A stretch of DNA of 37,744 bases. It comes from Candidatus Nanopelagicales bacterium (GTDB taxonomy: Bacteria; Actinomycetota; Actinomycetes; S36-B12). Position 1 is the first letter of the stretch; each line of letters begins with the position of its first letter. The DNA lies in NCBI GenBank assembly GCA_030728405.1, contig JANQZS010000093.1:91314-129057 (forward strand). Reading direction: 5' to 3'. Of this stretch, positions 1-2,813 are shown in pieces. Below the pieces are notes generated by a model. The model did not search any database, was not told the DNA's origin, and worked only from the letters and a program-made list of their open reading frames with translations. A program made the position numbers and the translations under genes.

Positions 1-993
1 TCCTCCTCCAAGGCGATCTTGAAAGAGGCCGGCTACGTCAACGCTGGCACCTGCGAGTTCTTGATCGGCGTCGATGGCACCATCTCTTTCCTCGAGGTCA
101 ACACCCGCCTGCAGGTGGAACACCCCGTATCTGAGGAAGTCACCGGTATCGACCTGGTGCGCGAGCAGTTCCGCATCGCCCGTGGTGGCACGATCGATTA
201 CGCCGACCCGGAAGTGCGCGGTCACTCCATCGAGTTCCGCATCAACGGTGAGGATCCCGGCCGCGGATTCCTCCCAGCACCTGGTGCCCTGAACGTGTTC
301 TCCCCACCCAGTGGTCCCGGCGTTCGCGTTGATGCTGGTTTTCAGGCTGGCGATGTGATCGGTGGCAACTTCGATTCACTCCTTGCCAAGTTGATCATCA
401 CCGGCAAGGACCGCACGGAGGCAATCGAGCGGGCCCGCCGCGCCCTCGATGAATTCCAGATCGACGGCATCGCGACCGCACTCACCTTCCACCAAGTTGT
501 GGTCCGCGACCCTGCCTTCGCCCCTGTCAACCCGGCTGCCCCATTCACGGTTCACACCCGCTGGATCGAGACCGAGTTCGAGAACAACATCCCCGCCTAC
601 TCCGGTAGTACCGATGCCGCCGCTGAACAGGCCGTGCGCGAGAGCGTTGTTGTTGAAGTTGGCGGAAAGCGCATCGAGGTGACTCTGCCCGCTGGGCTTG
701 GATCAGTGGGCACCTCAACCGCAACAGGTGCTGCGCCCAAGAAGCGCGCCCGCACCAAGGCAGCCAGCGGTGTTTCCGGGGATGCGGTAGCCGCTCCCAT
801 GCAGGGCACCATCGTCAAGGTCGAGGTCACCGAAGGCCAGCAGGTTGCTGCCGGTGATCTGATCGTCGTGCTTGAGGCCATGAAGATGGAACAGCCGCTC
901 ACCGCGCACAAAGCAGGCACCGTCACGGGCTTGAGCGCTGAGCAAGGCGCCATGGTCACCACCGGCATGGTGCTCTGCGAGATCAAAGACTGA
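1..993 (+). CDS. accA: Acetyl/propionyl-CoA carboxylase biotin carboxylase + BCCP subunit (5' truncated by window edge)
   Basis: Frame is open from base 1. Biotin carboxylase C-terminal motif [24 protein letters not shown] and biotinylation motif [11 protein letters not shown] near the C-terminus. Confidence 0.93.
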
Positions 994-1008: not shown

Positions 1009-1096
1009 CGCCCAATGCGCGGTTTCGAGGTCCAATTTGCGGTTCCGGTGGTGTTTTTTCGAGGTTGCACCGCAAATTCGACCTCCAACTTCCACG
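1009..1096. repeat. Imperfect palindromic repeat, copy 1 (3' side of the DUF559 gene)
   Basis: Arms GAGGTCCAATTTGCGGT (1027-1043) and ACCGCAAATTCGACCTC (1069-1085) pair 16/17. The segment matches the reverse complement of ~2278-2363, best at both ends. Confidence 0.8.
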
Positions 1097-1119
1097 GTCA
1101 CGGTCTATTCGGCCTCCAA

Positions 1120-2181
1120 CTAAGCAGCACCACGTTCCAACGCCTTGCGTATCCGAGCCTGCATCACCTTCGGATTCACAACTCCCTCGGCCCAGTTCCA
1201 CCTGATGACGGTCCAACCAGCATTGGCCAAAGCTTCCTGCCGGATCTTTTCCCTACGCAGATCATCAATGGATAGGTACTTGCTCATGCCATCTGCTTCG
1301 CCAATGACTCGCTGCCTGCGCCACAAGAAGTCACACCAATAGAGGTGGCCATCTGCACCACGAACCGGCTGACCGCACTCAGGTTCAGGAAGGCGCCCAC
1401 GCTTCATATTCACTCTGCTCATCGACTCCAGCACGGACTCAGATGCTGGATTGATCAGCGTCAATGCTTTCCGAAGAACTGCGGCACCATCGCGCCATTC
1501 ACTGCCCAAGGCAGCAATCTGTAGCGCGGCCAAGGCACTCGCCACACTCTTCGCATCGAGGACCGCACGGCGAATATCCCGATCAGTATCCATGGCGCCG
1601 ACCACTCGCCGTATGCAGGCATCGAGAACCGCAACCGCTTGGTCAAGTCGAAGTGTCAGCGAATAGTCGATTGCGGTTCGGGCCAATGCAGTGACGGGCA
1701 GCCCATTGAGTTCGATGCGTTGATGACTTGGGATTTCTTGTTTGTGGAGCTTGAGCCAGCCCGAATTCTCGCCATGATTGCACAGAGCAAAATGCACATG
1801 CGGTATTTGGTGACCGAGAACCTCCCGATCACCCAAACCGTTTCCCTTTCCGCTGCTATGCCCATCGCCGCGAGCATCAAAAGTAGGAATCTCTAACAGC
1901 AGCGCTGCGGTTGCCCCCATTGCAACTCCACCTGGCCGAGCCGCGTGGGCTGCTGCGACTGCTGTTTTCAGCCGAGCGATCTCGTCCGCATTACGCCATT
2001 GCTCAACATCGAGAAGTACCCCGAAACGAATGGGCACCAACGCTTCTGCCTTCACGGCCGCAGTCAATTGATGGCGGGTGAGCCCCGTGCTCATGAGTCG
2101 ATGTGCGGGAGCTGCTCCGTGCACCATCACAGCGCGAGCAATGGTGAGAGTCGTTGCGATCCGCTGTGGATGTGACATCAC
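1120..2181 (-). CDS. DUF559 / AbiEi-like protein with C-terminal Vsr-like endonuclease-fold domain
   Basis: 353 aa. C-terminal CDFLWRRQRVIGEADGMSKY...DDLRREKIRQEALANAGWTVIRWNW is typical of DUF559 (PD-(D/E)xK/Vsr-like). The N-terminal half resembles AbiEi-type winged-helix regions. Confidence 0.75.
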   Translation of the reverse strand: MMSHPQRIATTLTIARAVMVHGAAPAHRLMSTGLTRHQLTAAVKAEALVPIRFGVLLDVEQWRNADEIARLKTAVAAAHAARPGGVAMGATAALLLEIPTFDARGDGHSSGKGNGLGDREVLGHQIPHVHFALCNHGENSGWLKLHKQEIPSHQRIELNGLPVTALARTAIDYSLTLRLDQAVAVLDACIRRVVGAMDTDRDIRRAVLDAKSVASALAALQIAALGSEWRDGAAVLRKALTLINPASESVLESMSRVNMKRGRLPEPECGQPVRGADGHLYWCDFLWRRQRVIGEADGMSKYLSIDDLRREKIRQEALANAGWTVIRWNWAEGVVNPKVMQARIRKALERGAA

Positions 2182-2277
2182 CCGACTGTGTAGGGATGAG
2201 ACTGACGATGCAAATAGTCGTCCACAGGGGCAGCCCAGACGAATGGCCAGGCGAATAGTCAGTCAGTCGCCTAAGTC

Positions 2278-2363
2278 CTTGAAAGTTGGAGGCTCAAATT
2301 ACGGCGGAGAAGCAACTCAACAAGCCCGGAACCGCAATTTGGGCCTCGAACCACGCAGTGGGG
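2278..2363. repeat. Imperfect palindromic repeat, copy 2 (5' side of the DUF559 gene, inverted relative to copy 1)
   Basis: Arms GAGGCTCAAATTACGGC (2289-2305) and ACCGCAATTTGGGCCTC (2331-2347) pair 14/17. Inverted match to copy 1. Confidence 0.8.
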
Positions 2364-2369
2364 CAAAAA

Positions 2370-2813
2370 TCAGGGGTTGCTCGACATTGACCGCACGCGG
2401 ACTACGTAATCCTCCGGCGCCCCAGCTTCATGGGCTGCATCGGCAATCATGTCGACGTAGCGCCGAGACGGCAGACCACCCTCGTAATCATCGAGCACGT
2501 AAATCCAGGCAACGTGGGATCCATTCATCGTCTCAACGCGCACGCGGATCTTGCGCCAAAGCCCGAGGGCAACACCCTCCCACGCATCAAGGGTCAACTC
2601 ATCAAGGTGCGTCATGTCGTAGAGCATCACGAAGACGTCGTGTTCATAGTCCTCAACAACGGTTGCAAGGGCCCCGTCCCAACCGAGGTTCTCTCCTGCG
2701 AAGGTGAGCCGCCAGCCGCGCAACCAGCCAAATCCCTGTGATGGGGAGGACGGAGCCCGCTCGGCCATCAGCCGAGGATCGAGGTTCGATCCATACGCTG
2801 CATACAGGGCCAC
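2370..2813 (-). CDS. Gamma-glutamylcyclotransferase-family protein
   Basis: VALYAAYGSNLDPRLM start motif (GTG start at 2813 chosen over the longer ORF) and VVRVRSMSSNP C-terminus. Divergent from the lpdA-like gene. Confidence 0.8.
   Translation of the reverse strand: MALYAAYGSNLDPRLMAERAPSSPSQGFGWLRGWRLTFAGENLGWDGALATVVEDYEHDVFVMLYDMTHLDELTLDAWEGVALGLWRKIRVRVETMNGSHVAWIYVLDDYEGGLPSRRYVDMIADAAHEAGAPEDYVVRVRSMSSNP

Follow-up and report, generated by a model that had tools for sequence, protein, structure and literature searches.

Several described systems approach the locus considered here. In the REP/RAYT systems two REPs enclose the gene and others are dispersed elsewhere (PMC2817692, PMC3116915), while the CGTC-tagged REPs form a class that "apparently lacks a dedicated transposase" (PMC3733652). 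The target on which the homing endonuclease I-Bth0305I forms its dimer is almost 60 bp long (PMC3943268), and the AbiEi antitoxin binds two 23-bp inverted repeats placed 3 bp apart (PMC7319586). In the present analysis of a 37,744-nucleotide stretch of DNA (the window) from Candidatus Nanopelagicales, a nuclease gene and the two palindromes at its sides are probably one locus of a REP/RAYT-like system, the enzyme of which combines an AbiEi-type winged helix-turn-helix (wHTH) with an EDxHD nuclease. No published description of this nuclease/palindrome association was found in the literature searched, most subscription papers being beyond reach.

The locus and its protein

The window gene and its palindromes sit in a convergent junction between the genes of biotin carboxylase and gamma-glutamylcyclotransferase (GGCT), with the following features.

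1-993, plus strand: biotin carboxylase gene (neighbour; name from translation)
About 1021-1097: palindrome copy 1, lying 3' of the gene, with arms at 1024-1043 and at 1069-1088, 18 of 20 positions paired
1120-2181, minus strand: window gene, 353 aa; AbiEi-like N-terminal wHTH, middle domain and DUF559/EDxHD (Vsr-fold) nuclease (from ORF, Pfam/PADLOC, AF2 and Foldseek)
1123-1452, minus strand: nuclease domain, aa 244-353, with invariant E252, D284, E295-x-D297, K301 and R314
1486-2181, minus strand: N-terminal and middle domains, aa 1-232, which change in step with the palindromes; identity with the corresponding domains of the relative G033 is 60% and 50%
2218-2229, minus strand: DnaA-box-like CTGTGGAC motif, upstream of the gene start by about 45-48 bp
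About 2277-2352: palindrome copy 2, lying 5' of the gene, with arms at 2285-2304 and at 2332-2351, 17 of 20 positions paired
2370-2813, minus strand: GGCT gene (neighbour; name from translation)

An earlier note on this DNA had described two inverted copies of one repeat around a DUF559 gene, and alignment of copy 1 with the reverse complement of copy 2 bears this out (74 nt aligned, 70% overall; local alignment score 23, matched by none of 2000 shuffles). The same note found the ends identical and the middle diverged, which is explained by the fact that each copy is itself an imperfect palindrome, with arms around a centre of about 25-27 nt that is unrelated between the copies. As single strands the window copies fold only modestly (z -1.5 and -2.6), and therefore the case for the palindromes rests on comparative evidence. 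The DnaA-box-like motif is enriched throughout the family, TGTGGA being present upstream of the gene in 62 of 82 members and in 30 of 336 controls.

The window protein was assigned by Pfam/PADLOC an AbiEi-like N-terminal part and a DUF559 nuclease at the C-terminus, and E252, D284 and E295-x-D297 are invariant among 30 aligned homologs. Its AlphaFold2 model (pLDDT 92.8) gave no whole-chain Foldseek match reaching E 0.001; the separate domains matched AbiEi (6y8q) and the catalytic domain of I-Bth0305I (3r3p; target TM 0.80), so that the Vsr-like catalytic fold and residues of EDxHD homing endonucleases are present. An HUH/Y1 domain of the IS200/IS605-family transposases is absent by both Pfam and fold, and no AbiEii nucleotidyltransferase lies beside the gene, the neighbours being the biotin carboxylase and GGCT genes.

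Bracketing palindromes in the nuclease family

Bracketing palindromes are typical of this nuclease family. In a homolog set gathered by similarity and not by random sampling, the same palindrome was present on both sides of the gene in 67 of 81 homologs from the window's order (Candidatus Nanopelagicales) and in 12 of 40 from other actinobacteria, the backgrounds being 12/991 for control genes and 6/400 for mispaired flanks. A strict test that accepted inverted pairs only gave 58/81 for the order, 9/40 for the others, 0/352 for control genes and 2/200 for mispaired flanks. The bracket was not detectable in 14 of the 81 order homologs and is mostly absent in one Propionibacteriaceae clade. Within the order the bracketing palindrome measures about 65 bp and its sequence varies from gene to gene. 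The opposite orientation of the repeats, to which attention had been drawn earlier, proved inessential: over 79 bracketed loci 40 pairs were inverted, 32, nearly as many, direct and 7 undecided, and orientation need not matter because the site itself is palindromic.

Ordinary terminators or chance repeats would suit the window copies, which fold with modest energy and lie between convergent genes, but the identity of the pair and the private dispersal described below argue against them, and the rarity of bracketing among control genes is already contrary to them for the family; this explanation is hardly credible.

Dispersed copies and their privacy

The palindrome is scattered in 8 of the 10 order genomes searched, from a handful to at least 40 copies. 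At least 40 scored candidates were present in each of G047, G072 and G004, fewer than 40 in each of G012, G013, G136, G115 and G049, and the bracketing pair only, among the matches listed, in G046 and G003. As to whether the palindrome recurs in its genome, it does so in most of the relatives searched, and in the window genome a search found no third copy besides the bracketing pair. Scattered copies also occur outside the order in several actinobacteria, including cultured Haloechinothrix, Leifsonia and Propionicicella. At locus L243 (1879-2099) an inverted doublet of the G072 palindrome was observed with no gene between its halves.

Two palindrome arms were scanned across 166 genomes, and both turned up solely where a cognate gene is present, which bears on the question raised earlier of co-occurrence with DUF559 genes. 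With up to 3 mismatches allowed, the G012 arm matched G012 alone (18 forward and 19 reverse), and the G047 arm matched G047 (45 per strand) and its congener G045 (6 per strand), whose own gene carries a bracket related to the G047 palindrome; the reversed control patterns gave 0 matches for the G012 arm and 1 for the G047 arm. This privacy bears on the proposal that a free-standing homing-type nuclease gene entered an already existing REP family, the spread of which is due to another agent. The I-Bth0305I fold is in keeping with such an event, and some IS elements do insert in this way (ISPpu9, PMC8450116); however, insertion would split one copy, while most members have two full copies, and neither the restriction of both scanned palindromes to genomes with the cognate gene nor the joint switch of bracket and N-terminal domain (see below) is expected from it, which makes this origin improbable.

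The solo copies of the relatives have near-constant arms, a centre variable in sequence and a spacer of fixed length, as in G012 (60 bp, 23-nt arms, 14-nt spacer) and G047 (63 bp, 29-nt arms, 5-nt spacer); the copies of Haloechinothrix and Propionicicella follow a similar plan, judged by eye. In the G047 solos 99.5% of cells are paired and 3 pairs have changed on both sides, the arm covariation score being equalled by 1 of 500 shuffles, and as single strands these copies fold far beyond shuffles (z below -13). Neither the G012 and G047 consensus nor the two window copies have a GTAG head, and the G047 and G045 palindromes start with CGTC.

Solo copies are mostly extragenic, 10 of 32 overlapping a predicted ORF against 94% of random positions, and the genes around them are convergent in 8 cases, co-directional in 11 and divergent in 5. 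At all three well-aligned orthologous sites of congeners the G012 palindrome is missing; one of them is occupied in G010 by a palindrome family of that genome's own. Inspection of 20 G047 and 12 G012 copies revealed no target-site duplication; exact boundaries are blocked by the divergence of the flanks. Another palindrome, CATGAATGTGCCCC..GGGGCACATTCATG, was noticed at one shared site in G013 and G015 (loci L321 and L306).

These data can be set against an AbiEi-like transcription regulator with a regulon, for which the palindromes would be operators and the bracketing pair would serve autoregulation. AbiEi antitoxins do autoregulate via 23-bp inverted repeats (PMC7319586) and one palindrome copy lies upstream of the gene, but the solos are long with near-identical arms, are found among convergent, co-directional and divergent genes alike and are missing from congener orthologous sites, and the nuclease residues are invariant. 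A regulator is accordingly unlikely.

Exchange of the N-terminal domain and the palindromes

Comparison of the window genome (G000) with G033 of the same genus gave 96% identity for the flanks, 98% for the nuclease domain and 60% for the N-terminal domain, and the palindromes of the two genomes, at the same site, are unrelated. Thus the N-terminal domain and both palindromes have been replaced together while the nuclease was conserved. In 22 of 25 same-site pairs the N-terminal domain has diverged further than the nuclease (medians 44% and 65%), and it is on same-site pairs that the co-switch of domain and bracket rests. Over all bracketed pairs, most of which are too diverged, a Mantel comparison of N-terminal domain identity with palindrome similarity gave a weak correlation, which did not reach significance over and above the other domains, and a GTTTGTCCC-type palindrome is common to proteins with N-terminal domains about 33% identical; both points count against the interpretation favoured here.

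The difference of same-site homologs in the specificity module recalls conflict systems and, together with the AbiEi homology, would fit a defence or toxin-antitoxin-like gene with the palindromes as self-recognition or regulatory sites. The partner toxin gene is absent and the scattered palindromes are left unexplained by this proposal, to which absence from phage and viral records is neutral; it is very unlikely.

The earlier note asked for empty sites at the accA/GGCT junction, and a near-empty one exists in G072, where the junction measures 46 bp and the gene is absent; G033 has the different palindrome and N-terminal version there, and other relatives have other genes or other palindrome versions. 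With respect to homing, in which the gene invades and destroys its cleavage site, this G072 junction is the one near-empty site, and whole palindromes remain beside the gene. Translations indicate for this junction a RHH+PIN-like pair in G100 (L129), and in G081 and G076 (L106, L120) a TPM-like gene.

Mobility of the gene-bearing unit

The spreading entity appears to be the palindrome and not the gene-bearing unit, which keeps the same sites across genera. The earlier suggestion that gene and flanks form a candidate mobile or selfish unit thus seems in need of correction, the unit being also rare on plasmids and not found in phages, while its appeal to REP/RAYT or homing-endonuclease logic fared well in view of the typical bracketing, the palindromes dispersed through many relatives and the I-Bth0305I-type fold of the nuclease. 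A phage origin was rejected, as no relatives were present in the viral contigs or phage records searched, and so was plasmid spread (2 weak matches among 72,556 records).

Two loci in different genera, L011 and L024 (G000:C23 and G046:C4), are 99.8% identical over 3585 bp, by either recent transfer or a contaminant contig. Loci L135, L138-L141 and L199, in MAGs titled Bifidobacterium breve, match genomes of this order, and the titles look wrong.

Proposed mechanism and significance

Since, in the relatives checked, the palindrome is confined to genomes that have its gene and is frequently scattered there, the partnership looks like a second, independently evolved one of the REP/RAYT kind on an unrelated enzyme. 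We infer that the protein binds, cuts and mobilises the palindromes. The two 23-bp repeats of AbiEi and the I-Bth0305I dimer on about 60 bp suggest that two protomers would bind the two palindrome arms of about 20-29 bp, as AbiEi does its repeats, and that the nuclease domains would sit over the variable central spacer, by analogy with I-Bth0305I. Cutting in the spacer may then lead to palindromes being copied or moved to extragenic sites via break repair, while the gene would stay in place between two copies and solos accumulate, a state seen in several relatives and not in the window genome. Exchange of the N-terminal domain would change the bracket too, as between G000 and G033, and may start a new private palindrome family.

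A broader proposal, put forward tentatively, is a non-HUH nuclease route by which an EDxHD enzyme, once domesticated, would spread the palindrome belonging to it around the genome by break and repair, its specificity being replaced wholesale by exchange of the recognition domain with both palindromes; this would be a category beside REP/RAYT. A function is thereby offered for the widespread AbiEi/DUF559 fusion family, at least one member of which is annotated as an antitoxin, as well as a type of enzyme that is a candidate for those REP classes without one, and the data suggest that the alliance of REP with dedicated enzyme evolved more than once. Cultured isolates for testing palindrome movement are Propionicicella superfundia, Haloechinothrix halophila and Leifsonia virtsii.

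Comparison with known systems

The CGTC-tagged REPs (PMC3733652) have the CGTC start in common with the G047 and G045 palindromes. The AbiEi antitoxin (PDB 6y8q; PMC7319586) shares the N-terminal two-domain fold, which is here fused to a nuclease with no AbiEii partner seen. With the EDxHD homing endonuclease I-Bth0305I (PDB 3r3p; PMC3943268) the protein has in common the catalytic fold (target TM 0.80) and the Vsr-like residues; in contrast, its gene is not intron-borne, the recognition domain is AbiEi-like and the gene does not travel with the putative sites when these spread. Compared with REP/REPIN and RAYT (TnpA-REP), the "REPtron" (PMC2817692, PMC3116915, PMC8266576), the present system differs in its wHTH and EDxHD nuclease enzyme without an HUH/Y1 domain, in palindromes of 60-83 bp with a variable spacer and no GTAG head, and in a bracket that may be direct or inverted, but it is alike in the gene placed between two palindromes, in the dispersed extragenic copies that many of the relatives, if not the window genome, possess and in the tie of the repeat to the gene.
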